Source of the DNA: an uncultured Granulosicoccaceae bacterium | GTDB lineage: Bacteria; Pseudomonadota; Gammaproteobacteria; Granulosicoccales; Granulosicoccaceae | DNA length: 64,000 nucleotides | Assembly: GCA_938006335.1 (NCBI GenBank) | Contig: CALLMF010000009.1 | Location: 62,001-126,000, forward strand | Direction of reading: 5' to 3' | Part shown: piece after piece, positions 5,436 through 34,869 of the stretch | Layout of the letters: each line of letters opens with the position of its first letter | Numbering within the stretch: the stretch's first letter is position 1 | The notes under the pieces: model-generated | The model's database searches: none | Told to the model about the DNA's origin: nothing | What the model saw: only the letters and a program-made list of their open reading frames with translations | Position numbers and translations under genes: made by a program

Positions 5436-5439
5436 TCAA

Positions 5440-9440: not shown

Positions 9441-9476
9441 GGATCCGTCCTACGAGAACGTCGAGACAACCAGGGA

Positions 9477-11411: not shown

Positions 11412-11461
11412 CAGACACTACCGGGCGCCTGCAATGGCTACCCGGCAGTATCCGTTCAACG

Positions 11462-11719
11462 CTACCAGGTCGTGCCCATGACCGGAAGCGCGAGCCGTCG
11501 CTCACCAGCATTGGTGCGAGTGTCAGCATCGTCTTGATCACGCGCAATGCTGTATACGACAGCCACGCCTATTGCCGCGACAATTGCAGTCACGACGATT
11601 CTGTCCTGAATCTGCCGTGGAGAGCGAAACACCCGCGGCCCGTCAACAACGACACAGCCGGAAAGGAACACCGCGGCCAACAGGCCAATACCCATTGAAA
11701 GTCGTCTTCTTTTCTGCAT
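11462..11719 (-). CDS. Small putative lipoprotein
   Basis: This short protein of about 85 residues starts MQKRRRLSMGIGLL and has a lipobox (FLSGC) around residue 21. A second hydrophobic segment (VVTAIVAAIGVAVVYSIA) follows, then a polar tail. The lipobox suggests anchoring in the inner or outer membrane. No family was recognised. The start is uncertain: the frame continues upstream to 11830, where it would overlap the neighbouring gene, but the lipobox fits the shorter form. No convincing ribosome-binding site was seen. Confidence 0.6.
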   Translation of the reverse strand: MQKRRRLSMGIGLLAAVFLSGCVVVDGPRVFRSPRQIQDRIVVTAIVAAIGVAVVYSIARDQDDADTRTNAGERRLALPVMGTTW

Positions 11720-11819
11720 GGGATCGATTGGATTGCGAGTCGAGTGAATGTCAACGGCCTGGTCTGAGTCACCACAGTCAAGTGGACAGCCTAGGTCATC
11801 TCGACGTGGCATGTCACCC

Positions 11820-12308
11820 TCAGGCGGCAACGAGTACAGCGGAGCTACCCTTCATGTGAGCGCCAAGTGGAATCAATCGCGTGCCATTGGGTAGACGATT
11901 GACGCCCGAATGGACATCCAGGTACTCCCCGGCTGGCGAGCCGAGGTTGTTGGAGATCCGAGAGGAAACCTGCACTGCTACCTCTCGCCCTGCCGGCACT
12001 CGTATTGCGCCAGACGCACATGCGTTGTTGCAGTCGACAATGCCACCATCAAAAACCAGACGGTGCGCGTGGAAGCGCGTGACGCTGATGTCATTGGATG
12101 TGTTGTTGCGCAACAACAAGGTATCTTCTGCAACATCAGGCGAGCTGATCAGCTCAAGGCTCATGTCAAGTGGGGTTTCGACGGATGCGCTTGCCGTCGT
12201 AGAAAGCGAAGTACCGACAACGCCGGTGATGGTGGGAAGAAGGCCGGCTGCACTTGCCGCTGTCATGGTCTTGAGGGTGCGGCGCTTGCCGAGGTTGATC
12301 GAACTCAT
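11820..12308 (-). CDS. Exported hypothetical protein, possible Tat substrate
   Basis: This 162-residue protein has an N-terminal KRRTLK motif followed by a moderately hydrophobic Ala/Thr/Gly-rich stretch ending ASAS, which resembles a twin-arginine signal. The mature part is a compact beta-rich domain (LLLRNNTSNDISVTRFHAHR; an IVDCNNAC cysteine pair) and ends with a hydrophobic SSAVLVAA tail. No family was recognised. The start at 12308 is supported by AGGAGG 10 bases upstream. It is on the same strand as, and 117 bp downstream of, the metallopeptidase gene, and could be its partner. Confidence 0.72.
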   Translation of the reverse strand: MSSINLGKRRTLKTMTAASAAGLLPTITGVVGTSLSTTASASVETPLDMSLELISSPDVAEDTLLLRNNTSNDISVTRFHAHRLVFDGGIVDCNNACASGAIRVPAGREVAVQVSSRISNNLGSPAGEYLDVHSGVNRLPNGTRLIPLGAHMKGSSAVLVAA

Positions 12309-12425
12309 TGTTGGTGTCCTCCTGTGGACTATTGCAGACTGCCTGCACAACTTAACGTATGGGCGATTACCCTGAAACAGAGCCAAGTTAACGTTCGTTG
12401 ACGATGCACCATGAACAGCGAGCAA

Positions 12426-13316
12426 CTACCCGCACACCTCGTAGGTATTGCCGATCGACTCAAAGCCCGCCTTGAGCGCACGCGTACGATACGGCTGCAA
12501 CGCCGACTGAGAAGACATCCACGAGATTTTCTTTTGCTGTCCTGGCGTTTCAGCTCGCACCCCCAGAACGTACGCAGCAAAGGCCTCGGCAAAGTCCTCT
12601 TCAGGATGACTCGCTGCGTATGGTCCGAAAAACGAGTCATCCAGCGCACATCGACCTTCGCCGTCGGCTACGAGCGCCACGTCACCTGGCGTCAATGTAC
12701 TCAGCGCCTCAGCACTCCAGAAGGCGAGTATCCAGCGCCACAGCAGAGAATCTTCCGCGAGGCAATCGCTACCGTTCCAGAAAGTGGTGCAGCTTGATCC
12801 CGTAGCACCAGGCAATCGCTGTTCGTCGGCCCAGGTCAGTATGTGGGCAAACTCGTGTGTGAGCGTAAGCAGTGCGTCATCCGGATTCGCGTCAAACTCG
12901 GCGATGTTGATAGCCATGACCAACTCGCTGAGACTGTTCTCATCCGATATGACATAGGCGTGTGTGGTCTCGTCACTATCACCTAGCCACGCAAAACCAG
13001 CGAAGTAATCAAGTTGACGCAAGTGTTCTTGCGGCATTACCAGCGCCAACATTTCAAACGCTTGGCGTACCTCGACACTCGGAGTGCCAAGGCAACGTGT
13101 GCCCAGCGTACCGTTCTCAATCCGATACGCGGATAGGATGCGAGTCTCACTGTCGGCACCGATGGTTGTTTCGTCGCATCCGGACATACCGAGTGCGCTC
13201 GTCTGGCTGGACGATACCGTCGGATAATCCGACCTCCGCTCAACTATCTCACTGACGATAACGGCACCACAAGCACACAGGATCAGTAGCGAGAAATATA
13301 CTGAAACTCTTTTCAT
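12426..13316 (-). CDS. Secreted putative zinc metallopeptidase (HExxH)
   Basis: This 296-residue protein has an N-terminal signal or lipoprotein signal (LLILCACG). The motif LTHEFAHILTW supplies an HExxH zinc site near residues 158-162. A downstream EEDFAEAFAAYV segment carries acidic residues that could give the third zinc ligand, as in gluzincins. Several cysteines suggest disulphides in the periplasm or outside the cell. The sequence is not obviously a member of a named peptidase family that I can recall. The downstream exported protein and lipoprotein genes lie in the same orientation. Substrate unknown. Confidence 0.75.
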   Translation of the reverse strand: MKRVSVYFSLLILCACGAVIVSEIVERRSDYPTVSSSQTSALGMSGCDETTIGADSETRILSAYRIENGTLGTRCLGTPSVEVRQAFEMLALVMPQEHLRQLDYFAGFAWLGDSDETTHAYVISDENSLSELVMAINIAEFDANPDDALLTLTHEFAHILTWADEQRLPGATGSSCTTFWNGSDCLAEDSLLWRWILAFWSAEALSTLTPGDVALVADGEGRCALDDSFFGPYAASHPEEDFAEAFAAYVLGVRAETPGQQKKISWMSSQSALQPYRTRALKAGFESIGNTYEVCG

Positions 13317-13353
13317 GTCAGTTTGACTATCTATTCAGCCAATCTCAATCAGA

Positions 13354-14592
13354 CTATTCCGGGCCTGGCCACAGGCCTGCACGCGCGCCCTCCGTGAGGG
13401 CGAGCACTACATGGTAGTGAAGTCGGCTCAGCGCATCCGCCCACAGGACACTACCGCATGCATCGAGCTGGTTGATGAACGCTGCGCGGCCGGCAAAATA
13501 CGCAGTGAACATCAGTCGTGTCAGGTCACGTGCCGCGTTGGCGTGTTCCGCATTGTTCTTGCGCACCGCAAACGCCTTGATGGCCTCTGTTTGCGGCCAG
13601 AGAAGAAACCGTTCCTCACACCAGTCTTGATCTGCGGAAACGGCATCCAGAGCTGCGCCAGCCATGACCCCGCTGGTCGCGTATCCCGCCGTGTCGGCAA
13701 ACTCGAGCAAGCGCTCGGCCACCGTGAGCATATTGGCATCTCCGCCAAGCTCGACCTCACGCAAGAGTAACCATGCCCATTCGCACTGGTGTCCGATTTC
13801 ACGTCGCTCGCCATCGCGTCCGGGAAGAGCAGAAAGCTCGGGGGTGATGAATTCAGTCACCGTGCCACTACTCGTGTCGAAAAAATATTCCAGCCCTTTC
13901 AGGCGGATTCTGCAAGCGCGCTCCAACCACACCGCGTCTTGTGTCATCTCATACGCCTGCAATGCCGCTTCATACAAATGCATATGAGGGTTCTGCGAAA
14001 AATGAGGGTAAAGCGCTGGGTCCGAACCCACGAGGCCGTCGTGCTCCACGAGCATTCCCGTGGCCCAATCGACCAGTCTTGTCTCGATCGCCGCCCAGCA
14101 CGCTTCCAGCTCTGCCGACACATCTTCGTCAGGATTCAAGCGCCCCCATGTCGATAGCCCCAGTATCACGAAGCTCTGATCATATGAATAGGCAAGGTCG
14201 TCCAGGCGATCACCGGTCGGCGATCGATCAGCGGCTCGCGCACGACTGTACAAGCCCGGAGACTTCCGGAATGCATCAATCGCGTCGCGCGCAGTGGTTG
14301 CAGCCGATCTGAACACGGGGTTGCGGGAACCCAGCGCGAGGTGCGAGAACGTGAACAACAGCCTCGCCTGTGAGAGTACCGTCCGACGATCGGTATTCGA
14401 AGGCTCACCGCAATGACCAAGCTGATCAAAGAATCCGAAGCCCTCAGGGTCTGTCGCACGCTGCACCCAGCCAGGGAGAAAGCGTGACCAGAACCACTCA
14501 ACCCAAACGTCAACCGAAGCGTCAGCAGAGGGGTGTCCACTGACTATTGGCTGACTCTCGATTTCTACCCTCACCACATTCTCCGAACACAC
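13354..14592 (-). CDS. AGE-family sugar epimerase/isomerase
   Basis: This 412-residue protein has the alpha/alpha-barrel signature of the N-acylglucosamine 2-epimerase/mannose isomerase family: RRTVLSQARLLFTFSHLAL near residue 70, DQSFVILGLSTWG, the QNPHMHLYEAALQAYE helix pair, GHQCEWAWLLLR and LLWPQTEAIKAF. Histidines in the last three blocks correspond to the active-site positions of the family. The family isomerises mannose/fructose or epimerises N-acylglucosamine or cellobiose; the exact substrate cannot be read here. It stands alone on the minus strand, divergent from the next gene. Confidence 0.87.
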   Translation of the reverse strand: MCSENVVRVEIESQPIVSGHPSADASVDVWVEWFWSRFLPGWVQRATDPEGFGFFDQLGHCGEPSNTDRRTVLSQARLLFTFSHLALGSRNPVFRSAATTARDAIDAFRKSPGLYSRARAADRSPTGDRLDDLAYSYDQSFVILGLSTWGRLNPDEDVSAELEACWAAIETRLVDWATGMLVEHDGLVGSDPALYPHFSQNPHMHLYEAALQAYEMTQDAVWLERACRIRLKGLEYFFDTSSGTVTEFITPELSALPGRDGERREIGHQCEWAWLLLREVELGGDANMLTVAERLLEFADTAGYATSGVMAGAALDAVSADQDWCEERFLLWPQTEAIKAFAVRKNNAEHANAARDLTRLMFTAYFAGRAAFINQLDACGSVLWADALSRLHYHVVLALTEGARAGLWPGPE

Positions 14593-14666
14593 CCGCCCGA
14601 TTCACCCCCTGTCCACCGCAGTATCGCTCATGAAGCGGCAGTGCCAAGTGCTTTCCCGGCGAATCG

Positions 14667-15707
14667 ATGTGGCGTACATGCGATCATCGCCGTCTTCATG
14701 AGCAAAAACGACGATGCCTGGTGTCACCCGCAAGCCAAGATAGACATCAAGCAGGCAGAAGGCGGAGCCTTGGCTCCTCACTTGGGTTTATCGTACGAGC
14801 TCTTTTCTGGCTGGGAGTAGCGGTAAGCGTTGCTGTTGTAGCGCTGGGTCTTGGGCAGCAACTGCATCCAGCTCTGGACAGTTTCAGCCATTTCCGTGTG
14901 CACGGGCTCGTCAGCTCATGCATCGGACTGATGCTGTTGGGCATTGGGGCCCGCCGCTACCGAAAAACGCTGCTGTTGGTCGCAGGCATCCCCGCACTGT
15001 GGGCCCTGTCGATTCAATGGCATCGGCTGCCTGAGGAGTCCCGCGAGTCGGATTTTCGTGTAGCGCAGTTCAACCTCAACGTGGAAAACCAACGTACGGA
15101 TCTCTATCTCGACGGGCTCCGTGCCCTGGATGCCGACGTCTTGCTTCTCCAGGAAATCACGCATCAGAACGTCTCGGGTCTTGCAGCGCTTGATGACGTC
15201 TACCCCTATCAGAGCATCTGTCTGAATGCAGACAGTCAGCATGGCGTCGGCATCCTGTCAAAGACACCGATGGAAGGCGGAGGGTGCCGTCCGGCACAGC
15301 GCTTCACATGGCGGGAGCTACCAGAACACGACATCAACGTCGCGTCCATCCACGCGGTGTGGCCATGGCCAGACCGCCAGCATCAACACGTACGCGCATG
15401 GGGCCCTCAACTTCGCGCTGCCCGGGGCCTCGACACTACGGCTGAGCCGTCCCTGAACCGCTTGATTCTTGGCGGTGATTTCAACGCCGCACCGTGGAGT
15501 GAAACGATGCGCCAGATACAGATCATGGGACAACTGGAGCCATTGCCAGGCGCACCCATAACGATCAAAGTCATGGGGGTGCCGCTGCCAATCGATCACC
15601 AATTGCACACACCGGATATTTGCCCGCAAGCACGACGCCACGGCCCATCGAGCCTGGGATCGGACCATACTCCAGTGATTGTCGAGTACCTGTTGCAAGC
15701 CTGTTGA
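14667..15707 (+). CDS. Membrane-anchored endonuclease/exonuclease/phosphatase-family protein
   Basis: An N-terminal region with about three hydrophobic helices is followed by a complete EEP fold: FRVAQFNLNVEN, VLLLQEIT (metal-binding Glu), HGVGILSKTP, LILGGDFNAAPWSE and GSDHTPV (catalytic His). EEP proteins hydrolyse phosphodiester or phosphomonoester bonds in a Mg-dependent way; the target of this membrane form is unknown. The start is unsure: the first 30 residues (Arg/His-rich) look unlike coding sequence and a GTG at 14721 is an alternative. No strong ribosome-binding site precedes either. Confidence 0.8.
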   Translation: MWRTCDHRRLHEQKRRCLVSPASQDRHQAGRRRSLGSSLGFIVRALFWLGVAVSVAVVALGLGQQLHPALDSFSHFRVHGLVSSCIGLMLLGIGARRYRKTLLLVAGIPALWALSIQWHRLPEESRESDFRVAQFNLNVENQRTDLYLDGLRALDADVLLLQEITHQNVSGLAALDDVYPYQSICLNADSQHGVGILSKTPMEGGGCRPAQRFTWRELPEHDINVASIHAVWPWPDRQHQHVRAWGPQLRAARGLDTTAEPSLNRLILGGDFNAAPWSETMRQIQIMGQLEPLPGAPITIKVMGVPLPIDHQLHTPDICPQARRHGPSSLGSDHTPVIVEYLLQAC

Positions 15708-22347: not shown

Positions 22348-25300
22348 TCAGTACGTACCCACGAGGTTCACGAACCAGCCACGCGCGTCGTAGCTGTCGT
22401 CACCAAGATCGTCATCAAACGACGTGAAGTTGTATCCGATAGCAAAGTTCAAGTTGTCAGAGATGCGACGCCCCACCGTGAAGAGCGCGCCATGCCGCTC
22501 ACTCTGGGTGCTGCCTGAGATCAGCCAATGGTATGAGCCGGTCACGTCGAACCCGAACGGCACCTTGTAACGTACGCGGCCGGACACCAGGCCCGCGTCA
22601 TTTCCTATCCAGACTCCCGAGTCCCGTCGCAGCCGAATCTCACTCTCTCGACGAGCCAGCTTGCCACCCACACTCCAGTGACGGGTCAGTTCGTAATAGC
22701 CCTCGATGCTGGCGATCAGTGATCGCTCGTCCGTTCCCGTACTCTGCGACAACGGCTGCAAATCGTTCAGATAAGTTACTCGCCCGAGCATGTTCAGCCG
22801 ATCTTGGCTGATGGGGCGAAAGGCAAAGCCGACGCCCGCTTCCACAAATCGAGCGTCTTCCACACCAATACGATCGTCGGTGACCGACGCATTGAGCTTG
22901 ACTTGCCAGCGCAGTGACGCCGACGGTCGAAGCTCAAGACGGTTCGTCGTCACCCACTGCCGAGTCTCAACTGTAGATCCATCATCCCAACGGTATTCAA
23001 ACTTTGAATTGAATCGAGTGGTGTCAGCTTGATACGCAAACGCCGTTGACACCGAATCCCGATCGATCCTCGTGCCATCTTCACTGTCCAGCGCCGCACG
23101 CTGTGCCGTCAAGCCAACGGTCGCGTGCCTGGTAAGACGTTGATCCAATCCGACAGTATGCGCATAACCATTGCGACCATCCTCGTCCGAGAACTGATGT
23201 TCCGTATACACCTTGAGCTGACTGGAGACAGAGAGCCGCTGACCGAGCACCAAGGCGTGCCTGTCAATCTGCTCGCTGTTGAGCGAATACAGGTAGTTCG
23301 AGTAGATACTGTAGTTACTGGTCAGACTGGCCTCCAGGCCGAGCAATGCGCCATCACCCCTGTCGCCGGTACTTATCTCACCATTGATGCTGGTTCTGTC
23401 GCTCAGGTCGTAGCGGGCACCCAGCGCCGTGAGGTTATTTCGGGTGTAGGAGCCGGTGTAGGTCAGGGTCTCCTGCTGAACTGCGTAGATATTCAGCCGG
23501 TCACTTGCATCGAATGACAATTTGGCCCCGACAAGTGTCGCCTCACCACGAGTATCGGCAATTCTGTTTCTCTCGGTCTTTCGACTCAGCTCCGTCGATA
23601 CTGTCAAACGGTCGAACAGCAGGTAGTCAATCTGAGCGGCAAGGCCAGTATCAACGCTCTCATCCCTACGGTCTCTCCAGGTACCACGAGCAGACACTCC
23701 GATTCGATTACTCGGACGGGCAGCCATCTCCACACCCGCCTCGGAGGTATCCACATCGGTTCGGAGCGTGGACGTCGAGAATCCGGATTCGGTTCGGCGA
23801 GCCCAGACACCAATATCAAGGGGGCGGCTTCCCGGCTTGAAATCAACAAGCGAGGCCCGTGCCTCGAGGCTGAACGCATTGCCACTGGTCGTTGACGCGA
23901 CTGCGCCCACCTCGTCAAAGGACAGGCCGCCATCCGATGATAGGAAACTGCCTGCCGTTTGCTGCGCAGACGACTGAGCAAACTCACCCTTGATGTACGT
24001 CTGCTCCGACTTCTTGATGGTTACGTCAGCGCCCTTGATATCGTAGTCCGCGCCGTCGCGTTGCTCGTGCGCCCATGTGCCACCCACGCCGATGTGATTA
24101 CCAAGCCACTTCTTGACACGAGCACCCACGCTCGTGTCGTTGAAGTCAAGGTTATCCGGACTGTATTCATAGTCCACAACCAGATAGGTCTGGTTCCCCG
24201 CCAAGGGAACATCACGAATGATGGAAGGCCCACTCTGCGCAGTCACACTGACCAGTGGCCGGCGGAGCAACAGACGACCCTGAAAGTCGTCAATGTCGTA
24301 GTCGCGGCCCGCTATCAGTACAACGCGATCGACAACGCGTCCGGAATCCGATTGCCGCACTTCAACAGCCACCTTCTCCGATCCTGCGACGATTTGCGTA
24401 TCGCGGAGGTAGTACAAACTACCGCCCGTGCCTAGGAATTCGTTTCGACGCAACAGACTTTGAGGGCGTGATGCGAACGTACTGACAGAGTGCCTGGCAT
24501 CGCCAAGATCGGTATCCCGAGTGCTCTCATGCAGTAGCTGCGCTCCGTACAAACTACGATTGAGTGACGCCAGCTCCGTTCCTGTGAAGTTCGTGTTGAA
24601 GCTGCCCCAAATGAAACGAGAGCGATCCCAGTCCACGCGCACATAGAGTTTGCCTTGGCTGTCAGTGTCATCGATCAGTATGGAATCATCCCCGTAGACG
24701 GGATAGTACTGATCCGGATCCAGATGCCGGAATACACTTCGGGAATCTCTCTCATGGAAATTGTCGAACAGACTGCCAAAGTCATCAGTACCGGTGTCCA
24801 TCTGTGCGGTAACCAGGTACTTGCCCTTGACCTTGCCCTTCAGATAGAACGCAAGCCGCCCGTCTACAAAGATGTCACCACCATAGCGGTCCTCATCGAC
24901 GCTCAAGGGCTCGACTGAGCCGGTGACCCGGTTGGCTCCCACGGTGACATCCGCCAGACCCACCATGAACAGATAGTTGCTATCTATGTCGACACTGAGT
25001 GTCTGCAGGAGATCCGAGGACTCCTCATCCAGCCGTACGGCAAATTCATGCTTTCCGTCTGGCATGAGCAGCTCAAGGGCAAACCGGCCCTCCTTGTCGA
25101 CCTGCACTGTCTGAGAGTTAATTCGCAATCGCTGGCTTGCAGGAAGATCCTGGCCGAGAATTCGAACCGTCGCGCCGCGCACCGGAATACTTTCCCTGAT
25201 CAGCGCGCTATCAGATTCCACTCCATCATCAAATTCTCCACCGAATGAGACAACAGGCAGCTCAAAGCCGTCGGTGATTGCATCACCCTGCTCGATGTAA

Positions 25301-25932
25301 ACCAACGATTGGCGCTCCGTCATGTCGCTGTGTCCGTCAGTGCCAATCGCTCGCAGGGCATATTCAAGCCGCACGCCCTCGGCACGTTCAAGCGAGTCAG
25401 ACAGCTGCGTATCCCAGTTCCACTCCTGTCGATACAGCGACGCATCAAGCGCCTGTACCAGCAAGGGCTTGGTTGTCACCGAACTGCCCGAACGCCAGAT
25501 CAACAACTCAAGCCGATCGATGAAGCTTGCGTAGTTGTTGATGACTTCGAAGGTGTGCTCAGTGTCAGATTCAAGCGATACCCGAGGCGCCGACTTGACC
25601 GTCAATACTCGTTGCAGTGAACCCGGATCCTGTGACAACCAGATCGTACCTCCGGATTCCAGAGTGACGCTGCGTGCCTCCAGAGGCGTCTCCGTTACCG
25701 TCTCCGTATGCGTCAGAGTGACGTCTACCCGTCGGTTCTCCTGCCGAGAATCAGGGGAGCTGTTGCTCGAACGAGGATCCGCCTCACCTGAATTGATGAT
25801 GCGCAAGACGTAAGGCGCCTCCTCGGCGCAGGCCGCGGAGGTGCATTCCGGCTCATTCGCAGAAAGCCACTGGGGCAAGAGAGCAAGACCGACCACACAT
25901 GCGATCAGAAGCTTGTAGCGCGATCGCATCAT
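22348..25932 (-). CDS. Giant outer-membrane beta-barrel protein of surface operon
   Basis: This 1194-residue protein has a signal peptide (ending SAN at about residues 24-26). Residues about 40-330 hold beta-sandwich-like segments, including an ENRRVDVTL stretch resembling sequences near OmpA proteins. A conserved block around residues 350-470 reads YYPVYGDDS, GKLYVRVDWDRSRFIWGSF and LNRSLYGAQLL. From about 600 on, amphipathic beta strands alternate with short turns to a C-terminal aromatic residue (LVGTY), which is typical of outer-membrane barrels. It could be the translocator or anchor for the upstream secreted proteins, by context only. Its start overlaps the OmpA-tailed gene by 4 bp (ATGA). 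Confidence 0.8.
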   Translation of the reverse strand: MMRSRYKLLIACVVGLALLPQWLSANEPECTSAACAEEAPYVLRIINSGEADPRSSNSSPDSRQENRRVDVTLTHTETVTETPLEARSVTLESGGTIWLSQDPGSLQRVLTVKSAPRVSLESDTEHTFEVINNYASFIDRLELLIWRSGSSVTTKPLLVQALDASLYRQEWNWDTQLSDSLERAEGVRLEYALRAIGTDGHSDMTERQSLVYIEQGDAITDGFELPVVSFGGEFDDGVESDSALIRESIPVRGATVRILGQDLPASQRLRINSQTVQVDKEGRFALELLMPDGKHEFAVRLDEESSDLLQTLSVDIDSNYLFMVGLADVTVGANRVTGSVEPLSVDEDRYGGDIFVDGRLAFYLKGKVKGKYLVTAQMDTGTDDFGSLFDNFHERDSRSVFRHLDPDQYYPVYGDDSILIDDTDSQGKLYVRVDWDRSRFIWGSFNTNFTGTELASLNRSLYGAQLLHESTRDTDLGDARHSVSTFASRPQSLLRRNEFLGTGGSLYYLRDTQIVAGSEKVAVEVRQSDSGRVVDRVVLIAGRDYDIDDFQGRLLLRRPLVSVTAQSGPSIIRDVPLAGNQTYLVVDYEYSPDNLDFNDTSVGARVKKWLGNHIGVGGTWAHEQRDGADYDIKGADVTIKKSEQTYIKGEFAQSSAQQTAGSFLSSDGGLSFDEVGAVASTTSGNAFSLEARASLVDFKPGSRPLDIGVWARRTESGFSTSTLRTDVDTSEAGVEMAARPSNRIGVSARGTWRDRRDESVDTGLAAQIDYLLFDRLTVSTELSRKTERNRIADTRGEATLVGAKLSFDASDRLNIYAVQQETLTYTGSYTRNNLTALGARYDLSDRTSINGEISTGDRGDGALLGLEASLTSNYSIYSNYLYSLNSEQIDRHALVLGQRLSVSSQLKVYTEHQFSDEDGRNGYAHTVGLDQRLTRHATVGLTAQRAALDSEDGTRIDRDSVSTAFAYQADTTRFNSKFEYRWDDGSTVETRQWVTTNRLELRPSASLRWQVKLNASVTDDRIGVEDARFVEAGVGFAFRPISQDRLNMLGRVTYLNDLQPLSQSTGTDERSLIASIEGYYELTRHWSVGGKLARRESEIRLRRDSGVWIGNDAGLVSGRVRYKVPFGFDVTGSYHWLISGSTQSERHGALFTVGRRISDNLNFAIGYNFTSFDDDLGDDSYDARGWFVNLVGTY

Positions 25933-28900
25933 CGATCCTGCTCCTCGTAAGCAGCTGGATTCACTTCGACACTGACAAGTTTGACGAGCTCCGGACCCAG
26001 GGCGTCAGCCAGCAGACCGCGAATGGTCTCAGCGCGCTTCTCGGCCAACTCCAGGTTGTAGCGGGCACTCCCTCTCGAATCCGTATGGGTTTCGATCAGT
26101 ATCGATCCTCCACCGTAGGCTTTCAGTTTGCTGACGATATCGGCAACGATGCCCCGCTGATCTTCGCGTACGGTGTTCTTGTCGGTATCAAAGAACACCG
26201 ATCCAAGCTGCACTTCGACCTTGCTTGAGGTGCCGGTGTTAGCTACTGCCTTGCAGAGATCGCTCGTAACACCTGAGTACAGATCAGTATCAGGAACAAG
26301 TACACCAAAATTGATCTTGTTCAGTGTCTCGCTGACGATCCTGAGAACGTATGGATTTTCGGTAGTGAAGCGAGACCCTTGCGGAAGACTGGAAGGATCC
26401 ACCTTGAGCACAACGTTCTGCCCGATGCCTGTCGATCCAGCATCAACGTCAGGGATGCTGTATCGCCCGTAAGCATCCGTCTCGATAAGAAGGCCCGTGA
26501 CTGTCGCGAGGCGAACACCCGGGATTCCAGATTCGTCGATACCGTAGTTCTGTACGACGATACGGAGTACATCAGTGGGTGCGAGGTTTACCGGAGTCAG
26601 TCCGTCCTGGGAGGTTGGAACGTCAACCGTGTGCTGAGTGCAAACACGGATGTCCTGGCCCGTCAGCCCCCGCGCCTTGGCGCCGACATGTGCTTCCGAC
26701 ACTGTGCCAGTCTCGTTCACATGAATTCGCGTGCCCTCATCGGTCAACACCGTGAACGAGTTGTTGTCGGACAAGGGCATATGAACCACGACGGCGGTCT
26801 CCGCCGGATCGTCCTGAGCAGTGTTGCGCCCAGGCAGTGATGGCAAGCTGAGACTGTTCCAACCGAAGTAATCGCTACGTAGAGAAACGCCCGTCGCATC
26901 AGCAGGATCCTGTGCGCCGTCCTGATCCCTGTCGTGGAATACCTTTCCGATCAGCGTGGCCTGTTCCAGTACCGGATCCGAAACGATCTCTACTGTCGCG
27001 GATACCGCATTACTGGCCACCCCGTTTGGACCTGAAGCTACTGCGTCGTTTCGATAACTGCCAGAGACAACACCCACCCCGACTCGCATCAGATAGGTGA
27101 TACGCACCGTTTCCAGCGGATCGATATCCAGACCCGAAATACGCAGAGGGTCCACATTTGCAACCACGGGAGCGGTGACTACATCATCATCGGTATCCAG
27201 GTCCCCATCGGGTCCGGGCTGCACCAATTGAACCGATTCTGGCACCAGCAGGAAACCCGCAGGCGGTGTGTCGACAATCTCGATGTCGACCGACGGTGCA
27301 TCCTTGGTGTTCTCCGCGTTCAGTGTGTACTGCACCAGACCACCGATCGAGGCGCTGCCGACATCTGCAGTCTTGCTGAGCAGAATCTCGGCATCGTTGG
27401 CACGAGCATCGATTGGAATGTGATTGAAGATCACGTTCCTGTCGCCCGCTTCGATGTCAAATTGAACGTAGTACTGGGTCTGCTGCCCGTCGAGCGGCGC
27501 ATCCGGTTGCTCCTGGACTTCGCAGGCGTTGGAGCTCGGAATCGTGTCGATAGTGCAGTCGTGCTCCGCAATTGCCGAGTCGAATACGCTTGAGAGCGCA
27601 CAGCCAAGCGTCGCATCACCGCAGTCTCCTGCGCCTGCTTCACGAATGATCGTCGAATAGTCTGCTCGATACTCCTCGGGTGCTGCACTGATCTCGATGC
27701 GGTAGGTATCACCTGATGTACACGATGCATGCGCATCCGTATTCAGGTTGAAGGCGTAGAGACCGTCGTCTTCAGTTACCTGACCCTGCTGGCTTTCGAG
27801 CAGGCAACTCTCGTCGACTGCCACATCCTGACTATTGAGGAGGTTGAGCGTTACGCCGGCCACCGGAAATCGGGATACGCTGTCATAGACGACACCACCC
27901 GGATCGACCGGCAGCGGCAGATTGACAACCTGACCCGCCAGAATCGCACCATCAGTCGTCTGGCTGTCCATGAACACGCCACTTTCGTTGTAGAACTCGA
28001 CCGTGAATGCACCAGGTACCAGGCCAGTCACGCTGTAGTAGCCCTGGTCATCAGATATCGCGGTGGCCACAAGCTCGCCACTCGCATCGATGATCCTCAG
28101 CTGCCACCCGACCTTGCGCTCTTCATCAGGGTCGACAACACCATCCCGGTCCCGATCGAGCCATACGATGCCCTCGAGCGAGGCCGGTGCCTCGTAGGTC
28201 ACGGTTACCGATGCGTTGTTGGACACAAGGCCTGTGTTGTCACTGACCGTGTACTCGACGGGTGCCGGATCACCCAGGAACCCCGTCTCGGGAGCGAAAG
28301 AGATAACACCAGTACCTTCCTCAACGCTCCAGAGCCCTTCACCCTCGACGAGTAGTGAGGTCACTGAGTCGCCACTTACAGGGTCGATCAACACGACCGT
28401 TGCCGTATCGATGTTGTCTTCCGGGTCGGTGTCATTATCCAGCGGGTTCAACGAGACCACTTGCGCCAGGGGTTGATCAAGGCGCTGATCATCATTGGCC
28501 ACCGGGGCTGTCTGCGGATAGTCGATCGTGATCAGCGCTTCATTGGATACAAGTCCATTGATATCAGCCACGGTGTACGCAACAGGTGCCGGATCTCCAA
28601 GGAATCCCGCTTGCGGTACGAAGGTGACATCCCCTGTCGTATCGTCCACCGACCAGACACCTTCTCCAACAACAATCAGGGTGTCGCGGTCACCATCTCC
28701 ATCCGAATCCACGGCAGCACTGTCCGACAACTGCACTCGCGTCACGTCGATGTCGTTTTCCGGATCACTATCGGCGCCGTTACCGTTGTCGGCCAACACA
28801 TTGAGTGTTGTCGGGTTGGACGGACTGGCAACCTCCGGATTGACCACGCGATCATCCTGGGCTACCGGTGCGGTCTGCGGGTACTCGACGACCAGCAGCG

Positions 28901-31481
28901 CATCGTTGGATACGAGTCCGGTAGCGTCAGACACGGTGTAGCTTACGGGCTCAGGATCAGCAGTGAAGCCCGCGACGGGAGCAAACGATACTTCTCCAGT
29001 GGCGTCGTTGACAGTCCACGTACCCTCACCCGCTACGGTCAACACGTCATTGTCGCCATCGCCATCGATGTCCACGGCATCAGCGCTTATCAGACTCACC
29101 GTGCTCGGGTCCAGGTCTCCATTCTCGTCGCTGTCGCTGGCGGCGCCCGGCAGCGTGACCAATACAGCGCTGTACGGTGAAACGTGTGTATCGTCAGTCG
29201 CAACAGGTGCCAGTCTCTGCATCGGCACGATGACCTCATTACTCAGCGCGTCCACCACGTTGCCGGATGGATCCAGCGCGTCGACCGTAGCCTGATTCAG
29301 CACGTTGGTTGAGGCGATATCAGAATCCACGATGGTTCTGGAAGCAGAGCAGGTCAACTGCTCTCCAGGTAGAAGCTCCACGACGTCGTCAGCATCGCAG
29401 GTCACCGATCCCGCATCTGCCATCAGATCTTCAACACGGATATCCGACAGCACAAGATTTCCGGTGTTGCTCACGGTAAGGCTGTAGGTCAGTACATCGT
29501 CTACGGCAACATAGTCCGATTCGTTGGCTACCTTGACGATCTGCAGCGCTGGCGCCTGATCCACCAGCGTCACCGCTGTGTCCTCACGCTGTCCAGCCTC
29601 AGCGGTCGATACGGAAATCGTATTGGTCAGAGCCGTTCCGGCATCTACGTCATCTTGAGTGACCACGTACTCACCCGTAAGCGTCCAGCGTTCCCCCACA
29701 TCGAGCACGCCGGGCAACCCATCGTCCACCAGAGGTCCAGTCAAAGACGCGGTCGTACCGTCTGGCAGGGTGTCGTCAAACAGCAGATCGGTCAGTGATG
29801 TATTGCCGGTGTTCTCGACAACGATCTCGTAGTTCAGCGGACCCGGCGAAGAGACTGCAGCTGCATCCACGGACTTCGAGACCTCAAAGTCCGGTGATTG
29901 AGTGATGGTCGTCTGAGCGCTGTCACTGAATGCATCCGCACCTGTCTCGTTGCTGGTCACCTCAACGACATTGACCCTCGCCCAACCCTGATCAATCTCG
30001 ACTTGAGAGACGTCGTAGCTCGCCGCGTATGCCCAGGTCTCACCCACATCGATCTGGTCGGGCAATCCCGTATCGTCCAACGGCCCCACAAGACTTGCTA
30101 CGGTCCCATCTGGCAAAGTGTCCACAGCCACGACGCCAGTGAGGCTGACGTTGCCCGTGTTCTGCACGGAGATCGTGTAGTTCAGCGCACCAGGACTGCC
30201 GATAGACGCCAGATCGACCTGCTTCAGCACACTCATTGCGGGCTCTGAAGACACTGCCGTCACGGCCGTATCGAGCACCTCGTCGGTGCCGGTTTCGTCA
30301 GCGGTTGCCCGTACGGTATTGACAAGAGGATCACCGCTATCAAGGTCTGCCTGGGTTACCTGATAGCTACCACTGAACTCCCACGCCTCCCCGACATCAA
30401 GCACGTCAGCCAGGCCCGCATCCAGCACGGGGCCAATCAACACGGCAGCATTGCCGTCAGGAAGTTCGTCTACCAGCGTGACGTTGTTCAGGCTCACGTT
30501 GCCGACGTTCTCGACTACAACGGAGTAGACAAGCTCACCGGGAGTGTTGATGGTTGCGAGATCGACGATCTTGCGTACCGCAAGCTCTGGCTCGCTCGTC
30601 ACGCTGGTAACCGCTGAGTCCTCAACGGGGTTCGGCCCCGTCTCCAGTGCGGTCACCGATACCGTATTCTCAAGCAGATCACCGGCATCAATGTCAGCCT
30701 GCGTCACCGTGTACTCGGCCACGTAAGTCCAGGTCTCTCCGACATCGAGCGCACCGGCGGTACCTACATCAGTAGAAGGGCCACTCAAGGTGCCGGCAGC
30801 ACCATCGGGCAAGATGTCGGTCAATACGAGGCCATTAAGCGTCTGATTACCGGTATTGCTGACATCGATGTCATAGCTCAGCACCCCAGGAGAAGCTATG
30901 GCACTCGAGTCCACACGCTTGTCGACGCTGAAGCCTGGCGCCTGTGTCACTGCTACCTCAGCAGTCGCCGTGACAGGAAGCAGCTCATTGCTACTCACCG
31001 ATACAAGATTGTCGATGTCTCCATCGCCGCCACCAAACGTATCGATGTCACTCTGCTGGACGGTATACACCCCTGTGTACACCCAGATCTCATCGCCATC
31101 AAGCACACCGTCATCATTGGTGTCTCCTGACGTCAAGGACAGTTCGGCGGCAGGAATGATCGAATCGTCCAGCGTGATCCCGGTGAGCCCCAACAAGCCG
31201 AGATTATCCAGGGTGATCGTGTAGGTGACCGTGTCACCCGCCGCTGTGGGCGTCGACAAAGCGGAAGTATCCGCCCGCTTTTGAACCGCCAGGCCCTTCG
31301 GCCGAACCAGAACAGTGCCCTGATTGTTGGTGTCGTTGTTCTCGAACTGAGAAGAGGTTGAGATAACGATACCGGTATTGGTGAAGTCCTCGTCCGTCAA
31401 GGCATAGACCGACGCCAACCCTGATCCGAAGAACAGGGCCGCCGTCGATGTCAACAGCCTTGAGATACGAGAACCGCACAT
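25929..31481 (-). CDS. 1850-residue repeat surface protein with C-terminal OmpA domain
   Basis: After a signal peptide (ASVYA) the mature start ALTDEDFTNTGIVISTSSQF resembles the downstream end of its partner's signal region. Residues about 65-650 hold at least five tandem DUF11/DUF7507-like repeats of about 115 residues (LPDG..ASL.GP, LDVGE.W.Y, TQ.DID.G). Residues about 785-1095 hold three CshA-fibril-like repeats (APVA.DD, GEG.WSV, GF.GDP.PV.YTV). SdrD-B-like domains follow (GIVWLDRDRDGVVD; GKVFHDRDQDGAQD), with another DUF11 domain between. The C-terminus is an OmpA-type peptidoglycan-binding domain (VFFDTDKNTVRE, THTDSRGSARYN, LAEKRAETI). It would be tethered to the cell wall with the repeats outward. 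The fifth repeat and some linkers diverge. Confidence 0.85.
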   Translation of the reverse strand: MCGSRISRLLTSTAALFFGSGLASVYALTDEDFTNTGIVISTSSQFENNDTNNQGTVLVRPKGLAVQKRADTSALSTPTAAGDTVTYTITLDNLGLLGLTGITLDDSIIPAAELSLTSGDTNDDGVLDGDEIWVYTGVYTVQQSDIDTFGGGDGDIDNLVSVSSNELLPVTATAEVAVTQAPGFSVDKRVDSSAIASPGVLSYDIDVSNTGNQTLNGLVLTDILPDGAAGTLSGPSTDVGTAGALDVGETWTYVAEYTVTQADIDAGDLLENTVSVTALETGPNPVEDSAVTSVTSEPELAVRKIVDLATINTPGELVYSVVVENVGNVSLNNVTLVDELPDGNAAVLIGPVLDAGLADVLDVGEAWEFSGSYQVTQADLDSGDPLVNTVRATADETGTDEVLDTAVTAVSSEPAMSVLKQVDLASIGSPGALNYTISVQNTGNVSLTGVVAVDTLPDGTVASLVGPLDDTGLPDQIDVGETWAYAASYDVSQVEIDQGWARVNVVEVTSNETGADAFSDSAQTTITQSPDFEVSKSVDAAAVSSPGPLNYEIVVENTGNTSLTDLLFDDTLPDGTTASLTGPLVDDGLPGVLDVGERWTLTGEYVVTQDDVDAGTALTNTISVSTAEAGQREDTAVTLVDQAPALQIVKVANESDYVAVDDVLTYSLTVSNTGNLVLSDIRVEDLMADAGSVTCDADDVVELLPGEQLTCSASRTIVDSDIASTNVLNQATVDALDPSGNVVDALSNEVIVPMQRLAPVATDDTHVSPYSAVLVTLPGAASDSDENGDLDPSTVSLISADAVDIDGDGDNDVLTVAGEGTWTVNDATGEVSFAPVAGFTADPEPVSYTVSDATGLVSNDALLVVEYPQTAPVAQDDRVVNPEVASPSNPTTLNVLADNGNGADSDPENDIDVTRVQLSDSAAVDSDGDGDRDTLIVVGEGVWSVDDTTGDVTFVPQAGFLGDPAPVAYTVADINGLVSNEALITIDYPQTAPVANDDQRLDQPLAQVVSLNPLDNDTDPEDNIDTATVVLIDPVSGDSVTSLLVEGEGLWSVEEGTGVISFAPETGFLGDPAPVEYTVSDNTGLVSNNASVTVTYEAPASLEGIVWLDRDRDGVVDPDEERKVGWQLRIIDASGELVATAISDDQGYYSVTGLVPGAFTVEFYNESGVFMDSQTTDGAILAGQVVNLPLPVDPGGVVYDSVSRFPVAGVTLNLLNSQDVAVDESCLLESQQGQVTEDDGLYAFNLNTDAHASCTSGDTYRIEISAAPEEYRADYSTIIREAGAGDCGDATLGCALSSVFDSAIAEHDCTIDTIPSSNACEVQEQPDAPLDGQQTQYYVQFDIEAGDRNVIFNHIPIDARANDAEILLSKTADVGSASIGGLVQYTLNAENTKDAPSVDIEIVDTPPAGFLLVPESVQLVQPGPDGDLDTDDDVVTAPVVANVDPLRISGLDIDPLETVRITYLMRVGVGVVSGSYRNDAVASGPNGVASNAVSATVEIVSDPVLEQATLIGKVFHDRDQDGAQDPADATGVSLRSDYFGWNSLSLPSLPGRNTAQDDPAETAVVVHMPLSDNNSFTVLTDEGTRIHVNETGTVSEAHVGAKARGLTGQDIRVCTQHTVDVPTSQDGLTPVNLAPTDVLRIVVQNYGIDESGIPGVRLATVTGLLIETDAYGRYSIPDVDAGSTGIGQNVVLKVDPSSLPQGSRFTTENPYVLRIVSETLNKINFGVLVPDTDLYSGVTSDLCKAVANTGTSSKVEVQLGSVFFDTDKNTVREDQRGIVADIVSKLKAYGGGSILIETHTDSRGSARYNLELAEKRAETIRGLLADALGPELVKLVSVEVNPAAYEEQDR

Positions 31482-31485
31482 GGTC

Positions 31486-32928
31486 TTACGGTGCGTTGAC
31501 TACCGCGTCGAACGTGACGAAGATCGGCGTGCCAACCGGCACGCTGTTGAGCGTCCACGACAGGCCGGCTCCTGCAGGATCGCTTTCATCGAATGCATCA
31601 CCACCTCCAATGGAGCCACCCACATAGGTGAATCCCGCGGGCACCGGATCGACGACCGTCACATCAGTCGCGACATCAGGTCCCGCATTTGTGATCTCAA
31701 GCGAGAACGTGATGGTCTGACCGATATTCGGCGTAGCGTCGTCCACGCTCTTGGCGATGGACAAATCGATACCCAGATCGTTGTTGGTGATCGAGCATGT
31801 CACGTCCGAGCCAGGCAACAAGGTGATGTCCGTTCCCGTTGCGACGCCGGCACCGGGCAGACCCGTGGTGATCGTGTTGGCGTCCACACATGCCCATGTG
31901 CCTTCGGCATAGGCGGCAAGGTCCAGCTCGCTGATCGTGATGATCTCGTTTGCCAATACGGTTGTTGCCACGCCACTGCTGACGACTGCGCCATCAACAG
32001 AGATGTCGAAGTCCGCAATAACGCCATCACCACCGTTGTCATTGACGACGTTCTTGACGAGAGTCAGCGTCGGTGCAATATCGTCGTTGGTGATCGAGCA
32101 GGTCACATCTGCACCGGATGCAAGCACGATGGACTCGCCTGCAGCCGCGCCGGCCAGCGGAAGGCCACCGGTCAAGCTGTTGTTGTCCACGCATTCCCAT
32201 GCACCTTCCGTGTAGCCCGGAACGATCGCTTCACTGATCGTGATCGATGTGTTGGCAAGTACCGTCGTTGGATCACCGCTGGTGACCGCGTTGCCATCCA
32301 CCTCAAGCGAAAAGTCAGCGTCAGTCAGCAGACCACCATTGTCGTTGGTGACTGATTTGGCGAGCGTCAGCGTCGGCGCAATGTCGTCGTTGACAATCGT
32401 GCAAACGGTCTGTTGCCCGATAGACAGGGTGACCGAGCCTGAACTGAAGGTCGTGTCCATCATGGCGCCTTCGGTACAAGACCAGCTACCCTCGGCATAT
32501 CCGTCAACATCCGCCTCGGTTAGCGAGTAGGCGCCGGGCGGAATGTATAGTGTGTTGGATGTATAGGTAGTCGTTGAGCCCGCAGTCACACCAGCGTCAA
32601 ACGTGAGTACGCTGCCACTCGCCGCTTCTGCATCCGTGGCAATCGAGAAATCGCCCAGTACACCTACACCGCCATCGTCATTGACAACTTCCTTGACGAT
32701 GATCAACTCGGCATTGGGGATGATCTGTATCGAGTCGACGTTGTTGGAGGTATCCACCTCGAACTGCGATGACGATGCGATGACAGTGGACTGATTGAGA
32801 TAGTCCGAGAGTGTCAACGACCATGCGGTCAACGGCACTCCTGCTGCAACGAGGAGTATCGCGAGAGGCGCTCCAAACGAGCCTCCCCTCCTCTGCTTCA
32901 CCGATACTGGATGTCTTCTGATTTTCAT
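31486..32928 (-). CDS. Secreted protein with prealbumin-like repeats and C-terminal DUF11 domain
   Basis: This 480-residue protein has a signal peptide ending near AWSLT and a mature start LTLSDYLNQSTVIASSSQFE that echoes the OmpA-tailed neighbour (LT..D..N...VI..SSQFE). Three repeats of about 100 residues follow, each with a VKxVxNDDGGxGVLxDF/DNGG core, a GY.EG.W.C motif and a CxIxNDD end. These resemble prealbumin-like domains of SpaA/Cna-B type surface proteins. The C-terminal domain is DUF11 (KSVDDATPNIGQTITFSL). AGGTAG lies near the ATG at 32928. It is 4 bp from the next gene, so it is cotranscribed. A role as a surface subunit is inferred. Confidence 0.82.
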   Translation of the reverse strand: MKIRRHPVSVKQRRGGSFGAPLAILLVAAGVPLTAWSLTLSDYLNQSTVIASSSQFEVDTSNNVDSIQIIPNAELIIVKEVVNDDGGVGVLGDFSIATDAEAASGSVLTFDAGVTAGSTTTYTSNTLYIPPGAYSLTEADVDGYAEGSWSCTEGAMMDTTFSSGSVTLSIGQQTVCTIVNDDIAPTLTLAKSVTNDNGGLLTDADFSLEVDGNAVTSGDPTTVLANTSITISEAIVPGYTEGAWECVDNNSLTGGLPLAGAAAGESIVLASGADVTCSITNDDIAPTLTLVKNVVNDNGGDGVIADFDISVDGAVVSSGVATTVLANEIITISELDLAAYAEGTWACVDANTITTGLPGAGVATGTDITLLPGSDVTCSITNNDLGIDLSIAKSVDDATPNIGQTITFSLEITNAGPDVATDVTVVDPVPAGFTYVGGSIGGGDAFDESDPAGAGLSWTLNSVPVGTPIFVTFDAVVNAP

Positions 32929-32943
32929 GATCGCTACCTGGAA

Positions 32944-34869
32944 TTAGGGGGCTAACACCACGGCTCTGAAGCTCAACGTGGTAGATGCACCTGGTGCAAG
33001 AGAATTGATCGACCAATCGAGTCCGGTACCCGAGGGGGAGCTGTCATCTCGGACATCAGCACCCGTCATGGATAGGGGTACATAGGAAAACCCGGCAGGC
33101 AAGGGGTCGATAACCTGTAGGTCAGTGGCCACGTCTGGCCCTGTGTTGGTGACCAGCAGACTGAAAGTGATCGTCTGACCAACGTTCGGGGAGAGATCGT
33201 CAACCGACTTGACGATCGTCAGGTCGACACCTTGATCATCATTGTTGAACGTGCAGGTGACGTCTTCGCCGGCTTGAATCTGCACACCATCGCTACCGTC
33301 CGGATCAGTTCCGTCGCAGCTGATGCTTGTGAGCTCGTAGCCGGCCACTGCGCTTTCACTCAGCATGTACAAGCCTGAGACCACATTCGCCGACGTCACT
33401 GAAGCATCCCCGGTCACACCGGCTCCGGACTGGGTGGGTCCCGTGAATTCAAGCGTGAAATCGCCAACCACCGCTGTGCCACCGGCATCGTTGGTCAAGT
33501 TCTTGACCAGCGTCAGTGTCGTTGCCGCCTCATCGTCGTTGCTGATCGTGCAAACGGCGTGATCGCCGCTTGCGAGAGTGACAGTGCTACCCGACAGCCC
33601 GCTTGCGCCCACGCAACTCCAGCTGGATGCGTCGTATCCCGCTACCAGCGTCTCGGAGAGCACGTAGTCACCGGGCTGTACTACAGCTGTAGTTACCGCT
33701 GCGGTCCCGCTTGTGCCACTGATCGGGCTCGGGCCTGTTGCACTGAGCGTGAAGTCGGAAAGAACAGCCGTTCCACCGTCATCGTTGATCAGATCCTTGA
33801 CCAGTGTGAGCTCCGCTCCCGCGAACGCCCAGTAATAGATTGGCTCTCGCGTGTGGTTGCGGCTGGTATCACCCGTGAACACCTCCTCGTCGACGACAAG
33901 CCCTATCGCACCGGATGTCAGAGGCGTACTTCCATACAAGACGGCCCATGATCCGTTGCCACCATCCTCCGCCGCTTGCGACAACACGGCCATCGTGTGA
34001 TGCCGCGCTGCCGGGTAGCTGTAGCCGGAGTTCGCCCCGTTGTTGCCAGCAACGATATCGGCACCCATTCCCAGCTCGTAGAACACGTTGTTTACTGTTC
34101 CACTACCGGATTCGGCCACGATATAGCCGATCGTCTCCGGGCTACGGGAGTCCGCGATCTGGCCGATGTGCTTGCCAACGCAGATGCCATCAGCCATGCC
34201 TGCATTGAACGGCTCGCTCTGTCGCGAGTCACAGTCGGTCATGTAGATGACGCTGGCGCGTGAGTCGTTGTAACTCATCACTTGCCCGAAGACAGCTGGA
34301 TCGGCGTAGGATTGGACGATGTCGCCGCTGACATCCTCCATCAGACTCAGGTTCCAGCCACCGTCTGTCGCGAACTGCCCGTTGGTCTGATCGGAGACGA
34401 CCTTGTGCGCTTCTACCAGACGTCCGTCCGGCAAGATGTGCGCACCCTCGTCCATCACCATGCAGTGGACATCGCCGGGTGTCGCTGCCGAGTTCTCCCA
34501 GCCTTGAATCCTCAACTCGAAGGATGAAGCTCCGATGTTTCGGATACGTGGAACGGCAGGCGGGCTTGAATAGCTTCCGGCCGCACCGGCAAACGTTTCC
34601 AGTACGTAGGTGCAGACAGGAATGGCGTCGACATAGCTGTTGTCGAGCGTCACTGTGGTCCAGCTGGTGGACACATCAGGTACGAGTACAGACTCGAAGT
34701 ACGGCGTCAGGACCAGGGCACGAGCACTATCAATAGGCAACAGCAGTCCAATAAAGGCGAATAGTGCTGTCGCCCATCGTGACCAATAGACCGATGTTGA
34801 GTGCTCTGTTTCCACCTTCCTTACACTCGCCACGATGTGTGAACAGCAGGATTGCTGCGCGTGACTCAA
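32944..34869 (-). CDS. Secreted protein with unique N-terminal domain, prealbumin-like repeats and DUF11
   Basis: This 641-residue protein starts at an apparent TTG (34869); a GTG at 34833 is possible and neither has a good ribosome site. A signal peptide ends near DSARA. Residues about 55-345 form a domain without a recognised family (LTPYFESVLVPDVS, RIQGWENSA, YWAFAGAELTLV at its end). It contains paired cysteines and a possible metal-like GDVHCMV segment. Two NDDGGTAVLSDF/NDAGGTAVVGDF repeats and a DUF11 domain follow, closely like the next gene. It is probably the first gene of the operon. An adhesive or structural surface role is inferred. Confidence 0.78.
   Translation of the reverse strand: MSHAQQSCCSHIVASVRKVETEHSTSVYWSRWATALFAFIGLLLPIDSARALVLTPYFESVLVPDVSTSWTTVTLDNSYVDAIPVCTYVLETFAGAAGSYSSPPAVPRIRNIGASSFELRIQGWENSAATPGDVHCMVMDEGAHILPDGRLVEAHKVVSDQTNGQFATDGGWNLSLMEDVSGDIVQSYADPAVFGQVMSYNDSRASVIYMTDCDSRQSEPFNAGMADGICVGKHIGQIADSRSPETIGYIVAESGSGTVNNVFYELGMGADIVAGNNGANSGYSYPAARHHTMAVLSQAAEDGGNGSWAVLYGSTPLTSGAIGLVVDEEVFTGDTSRNHTREPIYYWAFAGAELTLVKDLINDDGGTAVLSDFTLSATGPSPISGTSGTAAVTTAVVQPGDYVLSETLVAGYDASSWSCVGASGLSGSTVTLASGDHAVCTISNDDEAATTLTLVKNLTNDAGGTAVVGDFTLEFTGPTQSGAGVTGDASVTSANVVSGLYMLSESAVAGYELTSISCDGTDPDGSDGVQIQAGEDVTCTFNNDDQGVDLTIVKSVDDLSPNVGQTITFSLLVTNTGPDVATDLQVIDPLPAGFSYVPLSMTGADVRDDSSPSGTGLDWSINSLAPGASTTLSFRAVVLAP

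Follow-up and report, generated by a model that had tools for sequence, protein, structure and literature searches.

The locus described here raises the question of whether four adjacent genes encode four separate envelope proteins or the consecutive parts of a single one. The window (the whole stretch of DNA that was analyzed, 64,000 nucleotides of contig CALLMF010000009.1 from an uncultured marine bacterium of the Granulosicoccaceae) carries on its minus strand four contiguous open reading frames, labeled g1 to g4 in gene order, with spacings of 15 bp and 4 bp followed by an overlap of 4 bp, exactly as a first-pass annotation of the same DNA had reported. That annotation viewed the genes as a self-contained surface-assembly set made up of subunits, a wall anchor and an outer-membrane part. 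The idea of a set fits the data, including a conserved gene order, but the proteins resemble successive portions of one chain that is cut inside domains. The reading preferred here, which is given a rough probability of 0.72, is that the four genes encode one giant adhesin in four exported pieces that join head to tail.

DUF11 domains at the first two junctions

The Pfam domains of g1 and g2 are of the SpaA-type (prealbumin-like) and DUF11 families, in agreement with the first-pass annotation, and the DUF11 domain at the end of each protein is incomplete. The match to the DUF11 profile PF01345 ends 3 residues before the stop codon in g1 and 2 residues before it in g2, and six of six further operon tails tested also end at profile positions 84-86. 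A complete single-chain DUF11 domain is therefore absent from all eight operon tails scanned, which reach only 84-86 of 114 positions, and coverage to 112-114 is obtained only after a tail is joined to the N-terminus of the next protein. When the tail of g1 is extended with the mature N-terminus of g2, its score rises from 73.9 bits (profile positions 1-84) to 91.0 bits (1-113), a gain of 17.1 bits, and the tail of g2 goes from 72.7 bits (1-85) to 85.7 bits (1-112) with the N-terminus of g3, a gain of 13.0 bits. The same joins were made in three more distant genomes, giving eight junctions from four of the 14 genomes in which all four genes are present. Scores for g1 and g2, respectively, increase from 73.2 to 96.3 (+23.1) and from 73.3 to 87.9 (+14.6) bits in L033, from 87.3 to 101.8 (+14.5) and from 83.0 to 101.6 (+18.6) bits in L031, and from 75.3 to 88.9 (+13.6) and from 74.8 to 83.7 (+8.9) bits in L028. 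Gains of 8.9-23.1 bits at all eight junctions compare with 1.8 bits for a control join of the g1 tail to the g4 N-terminus (75.7 bits, 1-85) and 0.6 bits for a shuffled donor on the g1 tail of L033 (73.8 bits, 1-98).

The mature N-termini of g2 and g3 thus look like the missing DUF11 end of the preceding protein, and the truncated domains and the N-termini are referred to below as acceptors and donors. The operon contains two of each, with g1 lacking a donor and g3 lacking a DUF11 acceptor, so the tally balances only between proteins, in the order g1-g2-g3.

The DUF11 family, renamed 'CLIPPER' in 2025 (PMC12617251), includes a domain whose crystal structure (9IFR) contains an isopeptide bond between Lys715 and Asn806, with Asp748 as the presumed catalyst; CnaA-like domains carry the two bonded residues on their first and penultimate strands (PMC12617251). 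In the operons, this lysine (Lys) and aspartate (Asp) are present in all 30 tails (14 g1, 15 g2 and one extra tip), and Lys554 and Asp588 of g1 are invariant in 11 aligned g1 sequences. The Asp follows the Lys by 34 residues in 29 of the 30 tails and by 36 in the remaining one, which contains unknown bases, while the Lys is located exactly 87 residues from the C-terminus in 27 tails and 85-88 residues from it in all 30. The asparagine (Asn) is found in 30 of 30 heads of the next protein (15 g2 and 15 g3), a count that leaves out five g3 starts outside the fetched DNA. The complete DUF11/CLIPPER triad is present, but it is divided over two chains. Because Lys and Asp are in the tail and Asn is in the following head, the expected bond partner of the Lys is on the next protein. 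A profile built from eight joined ends finds 9IFR as its best match among Protein Data Bank (PDB) sequences, with an expectation value (E) of 0.002. The alignment to 9IFR is gapless across both the Lys and the Asp column, which are 34 residues apart in both by our own count, where the published numbering gives 33. A search of PDB sequences with the joined g1-g2 end by itself matched only antibody chains (best E 0.078). On balance, these residues favor the formation of an isopeptide bond between proteins at the two DUF11 joints.

The OmpA domain at the third junction

The first-pass annotation described g3 as an 1850-residue fiber anchored by OmpA. Its length and its OmpA match are upheld, as are Pfam matches to DUF7507/DUF11, CshA repeats and SdrD_B, but the OmpA domain is incomplete (profile positions 1-65 of 98) and its apparent remainder is in g4. 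The protein hence lacks the complete C-terminal OmpA domain of an OmpA-tailed fibrillar adhesin, and the anchor, rather than being a separate part, appears to be divided between the third and fourth proteins.

That the start of g4 looks like the remainder of the OmpA domain of g3 rests on matches to NCBIfam models, on a match elsewhere in the same genome, on an alignment to a known structure and on g3-g4 fusions. Residues 44-73 of g4 match positions 177-206 of the 206 in NF053611 (E 0.0036, below the cut-off), and residues 44-82 match positions 258-296 of the 304 in NF006508 (E 0.0096). Residues 23-77 match contig C1 of the same genome at 24290-24457 (E 0.003), a stretch that forms the latter half of an OmpA domain located at C1:24140-24427. 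When g3 and g4 are joined into one query and compared with the OmpA-like chain 5u1h, the g3 tail is placed on positions 9-84 and the g4 head on positions 90-117; on 2lca and 2lbt, the highest-scoring stretch of the joined query is the g4 part. Two relatives contain the parts in one frame. In G031, a single frame of 2253 residues encodes DUF11, a complete OmpA domain (43.5 bits, 1-98 of 98) and, after it, the g4 part, and in G272 (L130 and L131) an open frame of 11777 residues ends in g3-like and g4-like parts and retains, by eye, a signal-peptide-like stretch inside the OmpA break. These fusions indicate that g3 and g4 can be one chain in this order.

The arrangement is widely shared. Of 48 genomes of the order, 22 contain relatives of g4 at E<=1e-30, and of 369 drawn from the class, 31 do so at E<=1e-40; both counts include the source genome. 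In 20 of the 22, again including the source genome, g3 and g4 are separate neighbors with the OmpA break; the other two are the fused G031 and a contig-edge fragment in G001. The first-pass annotation proposed a search for the same gene order in other genomes and named its absence as grounds for abandoning the idea of a surface-assembly system. The order g1-g2-g3-g4 is in fact conserved, being read in 14 genomes with the source genome included (g4 is cut by the contig end in L045), so that objection fails. In the other six of the 20, the contig end is reached (L026, L029, L030, L108 and L110) or a g3 frame of 5057 residues extends to the end of the fetched stretch, placing the genes before g3 outside the view (L109).

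Two side observations concern this junction. The end of g3 and the start of g4 in L111 have both lost their OmpA motifs, as if the two parts decayed as one unit. In L036 (G054), a 2818-residue frame with DUF11-like repeats adjoins a 1725-residue g4-like frame with three N-terminal OmpA matches.

Proposed assembly and alternative explanations

In the proposed assembly, the four pieces would be exported by Sec, each with its own signal peptide, and would be joined in gene order, with g1 as a lectin-like tip, g2 as a shaft of variable length, g3 as a stalk and g4 as an outer-membrane base. At joints 1 and 2, a truncated DUF11 (CLIPPER, CnaA-like) domain without its last two strands would receive them from the next mature N-terminus. 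The acceptor would contribute the Lys on the first strand together with the catalytic Asp, and the donor would contribute the Asn, so that the joint could seal itself with an intermolecular Lys-Asn isopeptide bond. At joint 3, the C-terminal part of g3 and the N-terminal part of g4 would form one periplasmic OmpA domain that ties the fiber to peptidoglycan and to g4, and the chain may pass through g4. Because the head of g2 fits its own tail, g2 could also be repeated in the shaft. The sequence itself establishes the cut points, the regained profile coverage at joints 1 and 2, the conservation of the residues and of the gene order, and the natural g3-g4 fusions; complementation in the cell, formation of the bond, the route through g4 and the stoichiometry of the pieces are inferred. 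Domain complementation between the proteins is the element held with most assurance and is considered quite probable, and the use of g4 as a conduit for the chain is given an even chance.

Several results weigh against this proposal. At the DUF11 joints, the alignment with 9IFR stops at profile position 61, before the donor, so the Asn is not directly compared, and the Lys-to-Asn distance is 95-96 residues in eight of eight joined chains as opposed to 91 in the published account (PMC12617251). A home-made DUF11 profile applied to 23 junctions gives a mean cognate gain of only 3.2 bits (range -2.6 to 10.8), with controls at -1.5 (shuffles), -1.1 (random stretches of g3) and -0.5 (g4 N-terminus). 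With a second such profile, also applied to 23 junctions, the control fails: cognate joins gain 2.5 bits, shuffles -2.2 and the g4 N-terminus 3.0. Both were built from mixed domains, and the first separates means only; PF01345 is relied upon instead because its controls behave. An AlphaFold model of g2 from five sequences (mean predicted local distance difference test score, pLDDT, 51.7) does not dock the g2 donor (pLDDT about 24-34) into the g2 acceptor, a result regarded as uninformative rather than negative. At the OmpA joint, the g4 piece alone scores only 4.8 bits on 5u1h, joining the domain adds only 3.7 bits in Pfam and does not lengthen the coverage (-0.5 in a control with the g2 head), and a strand-3-like stretch is seemingly present on both sides of the break (by eye). 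The AlphaFold model of g4, based on a five-row alignment, has a pLDDT of 32.6 and is strand-rich at low confidence. Finally, two loci depart from the expected pairing: an extra tip gene in L111 precedes g1, which has no donor, and in L132 a g3-like frame of 3811 residues (3344-14779) begins with a donor-like N-terminus with no acceptor gene in the preceding 3.3 kb.

The alternatives differ in how much of the proposal they retain. Complementation could occur without a covalent bond, as plain donor-strand complementation at the DUF11 joints, and sequence alone cannot demonstrate a bond; the retention of Lys and Asp in every one of the 30 tails and of Asn in every one of the 30 heads, together with the presence of the triad in a distant gene set (L112), makes this explanation unlikely. 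The g2 donor might also close on its own tail, or g2 might self-polymerize into a long shaft in which g1 and g3 are rare ends. Partner choice is not settled by the profile scores, since the head of g2 on its own tail reaches 87.7 bits, no lower than the 85.7 bits obtained with the g3 head, and polymerization of g2 could be accommodated by the preferred explanation. Closure within one chain would leave the g1 acceptor and the g3 donor unpaired, however, and the g2 and g3 donors form two separate conserved types, with mean identities of 0.63 within g2, 0.50 within g3 and 0.39 between the two. This alternative is judged slightly less likely than non-covalent complementation.

It is improbable that the breaks are left over from gene fission or from the phase of the repeats, with part-domains tolerated and the proteins acting apart. 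Tandem arrays of one domain can yield ends in any phase, and the donor-like start without an adjacent acceptor in L132 would suit such an origin, but the breaks are retained among genomes whose g4 is 43-60% identical to that of the window, a paralogous cluster and another class show the DUF11 break again, two unrelated domain types are both cut, and the OmpA halves of L111 lost their motifs together. The original view of separate subunits, a complete OmpA-anchored fiber and an independent barrel accounts for the gene order and domain content; with the OmpA domain of g3 incomplete, its apparent end in g4 and a fused relative in G031, it is the least probable of the explanations considered and is given very little weight. 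Four wholly independent proteins were rejected as a candidate because domains are cut at all three junctions, and a single protein made by read-through or frameshifting was rejected because every downstream gene possesses a start of its own and, judged by eye, a separate signal peptide.

Known systems, related gene sets and layout of the locus

Strand complementation is already known as a principle. In chaperone-usher pili, the N-terminal strand of one subunit completes the unfinished immunoglobulin-like domain of the next. The likeness would be an N-terminal strand that completes an unfinished domain of a neighbor, which the profile completion supports, whereas the proteins of the window are multidomain, use DUF11 and OmpA instead of pilin folds, and may be closed covalently. 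No chaperone, usher or pilin family scores above the Pfam or NCBIfam cut-off in the four proteins (among the other genes of the window, only three proteins of a second DUF11 cluster were scanned), and g3 has a CooC_C match without significance (E 0.085). Subunits of sortase-assembled pili carry a C-terminal sorting signal composed of an LPXTG-type motif, a membrane helix and a charged tail; no such signal is seen by eye in g1 or g2, which end abruptly in ..VLAP and ..VNAP. Autotransporters (type V) hold the passenger and a C-terminal barrel in one chain. Fused relatives resemble them in holding stalk, OmpA domain and putative barrel in one chain, but the version in the window consists of four chains, and single chains are confined to relatives, G031 and G272 among them. 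By the features tested, the system is not a member of the chaperone-usher, sortase or autotransporter systems.

The SpyTag/SpyCatcher bond is of the Lys-Asp, CnaB type. Like the proposed joints, that pair consists of a peptide and the remaining part of an isopeptide domain, on two chains, that join unaided; it is engineered (PMC6539128), whereas the pair in the window is natural, of CnaA type and Lys-Asn. The closest single-chain counterpart is the CLIPPER-stalk adhesin B9T28_05395 of Acinetobacter silvestris, which shares an adhesive N-terminal part, a DUF11/CLIPPER stalk, a C-terminal OmpA-like domain and the Lys, Asp and Asn isopeptide triad within DUF11; it is described as one chain of 2129 residues with an intrachain bond, whereas in the window four chains are present and both the triad and the OmpA domain are divided between neighbors (PMC12617251). 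In the main text of that article, the terms 'split' and 'donor strand' do not occur. The Sulfolobus thread filament likewise combines donor strand complementation with a proposed intermolecular isopeptide bond and no known sortase, but it is archaeal and is built from a single repeated subunit with a type-I-pilin-like fold, in which an N-terminal Asp would be bonded to an Asn two subunits away (PMC9715654). In the passages covered of the F-ENA paper, DUF11 figures solely as part of an anchor protein. The open-access literature, covered partly through titles and abstracts, yielded no account of a DUF11 or OmpA domain shared out between proteins; subscription papers and preprints were outside this scope.

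A slight preference is given to a broader reading in which the operon represents a chaperone-free, sortase-free class of fibers, whose separately secreted proteins weld end to end through DUF11 isopeptide and OmpA joints, with a donor/acceptor code in several clusters across the Pseudomonadota. If true, DUF11/CLIPPER domains would serve as natural self-welding connectors between proteins, beyond their role as stabilized stalk modules, and a route to Gram-negative surface fibers without chaperone, usher or sortase would be added to those known. It would also account for DUF11 genes with an early stop and for secreted proteins whose first element is an isolated N-A-V strand, point to an outer-membrane partner of OmpA-tailed adhesins, and provide natural CnaA-type Lys-Asn pairs as a complement to the engineered tags.

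The features of the locus are collected in Table 1. Signal-peptide-like stretches at the start of all four proteins were read by eye; the numbering of the donor Asn as a mature residue depends on the ends chosen for them, and the TTG codon is an uncertain start for g1. Scans of the window with Rfam (gathering scores) and for tRNAs gave no match. Between 22000 and 35300, no promoter was found (5.8 expected from shuffles), and a terminator scan returned three sites against 7.3 expected.

Table 1. Features of the four-gene operon and of the second DUF11 cluster (positions in the window)
Feature	Position	Strand	Description
g1 (tip)	32944-34869	-	641 aa, TTG start; secreted (by eye); SpaA-type domains; C-terminally cut DUF11
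g1 acceptor (truncated DUF11)	32947-33225	-	residues 549-641, profile 1-84 of 114; Lys554, Asp588
g2 (shaft)	31486-32928	-	480 aa; donor N-terminus, SpaA-type repeats, truncated DUF11 end
g2 donor (mature N-terminus)	32716-32817	-	residues 38-71 (cleavage site by eye); Asn45, mature residue 8
g2 acceptor (truncated DUF11)	31489-31767	-	residues 388-480, profile 1-85 of 114; Lys393, Asp427
g3 (stalk)	25929-31481	-	1850 aa; donor N-terminus, DUF7507/DUF11, CshA repeats, SdrD_B, two thirds of OmpA (N-terminal part)
g3 donor (mature N-terminus)	31299-31400	-	residues 28-61 (cleavage site by eye); Asn35, mature residue 8
g3 C-terminal OmpA part	25932-26219	-	profile 1-65/66 of 98
g4	22348-25932	-	1194 aa; signal peptide (by eye), apparent OmpA end, putative outer-membrane barrel, C-terminus ..GWFVNLVGTY
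g4 N-terminal apparent OmpA remainder	25714-25815	-	residues 40-73, GE..P..N..NRRVDV
Cluster 2 tip	5440-8823	-	GEVED domain; no donor; truncated DUF11 end
Cluster 2 small protein	4790-5365	-	191 aa; single truncated DUF11-like domain
Cluster 2 shaft	1741-4764	-	donor and truncated DUF11 end
Cluster 2 base	ends at 1740	-	donor; barrel part (by eye)

The individual pieces vary among genomes. An H_lectin match (PF09458) is present at E<=1 in the heads of six of 11 g1 sequences (best E 3.3e-4), the g1 of the window not being among them, and g1 probably binds sugars through an H-type-lectin-like head. The extra frame before g1 in L111 (3667-5232, 521 residues) combines a different head, presumably LamG-like, with the same truncated DUF11 end and has the appearance of an alternative tip. 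Open frames of g2 range from 480 to 1606 residues across genomes and differ in the number of SpaA repeats. In the AlphaFold model of g2, the truncated DUF11 domain (391-480) has ten-residue mean pLDDT values of 56-90 and is modeled with seven strands, compared with nine in 9IFR. A Foldseek search with the whole model ranks 9IFR second after an integrin, at a template modeling (TM) score of 0.60 by target length.

For g4, the 1194-residue frame of the first-pass annotation is correct, and its assignment as a barrel is indirect. No Pfam match exceeds the cut-off, and phmmer searches of PDB sequences returned no match at E<=1 for g4 and none at E<=0.01 for g2. The fused frame of G031 has an outer-membrane-barrel match of 25.6 bits against a Pfam cut-off of 28.7; the match below the cut-off in the fused relative L035 is to OMP_b-brl. 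Together with the aromatic C-terminus and the strand-rich model, this makes g4 a putative outer-membrane barrel.

Similar gene sets are present elsewhere. In L112 (G141), from another class of the phylum, four neighboring genes are found in a like order, the last two judged by eye; both DUF11 cuts are at profile position 84, joining adds 14.8 bits at one joint and 12.4 at the other, and the triad of Lys, Asp and Asn is in place. The source genome itself contains a second, paralogous DUF11 cluster that runs from 8823 down to 1 on the minus strand of the window and continues on L085; the base is followed by an OmpA lipoprotein-like gene and then by a second shaft with a donor and a truncated end. 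Joining the tip tail to the shaft head raises the PF01345 score from 24.1 bits (10-84) to 38.0 bits (10-100). The shaft tails have no PF01345 match alone at E<=0.01 and, with the base head, give 18.6 (13-113) and 24.4 (18-113) bits, below the Pfam cut-off. Two exceptions to pairing occur here: the tip precedes the 191-residue single-domain protein, which has no donor, and the gene after the last shaft does not encode a DUF11 protein (by eye). The 191-residue protein also has no Lys at the usual place (by eye), and it could cap or chaperone free donors.

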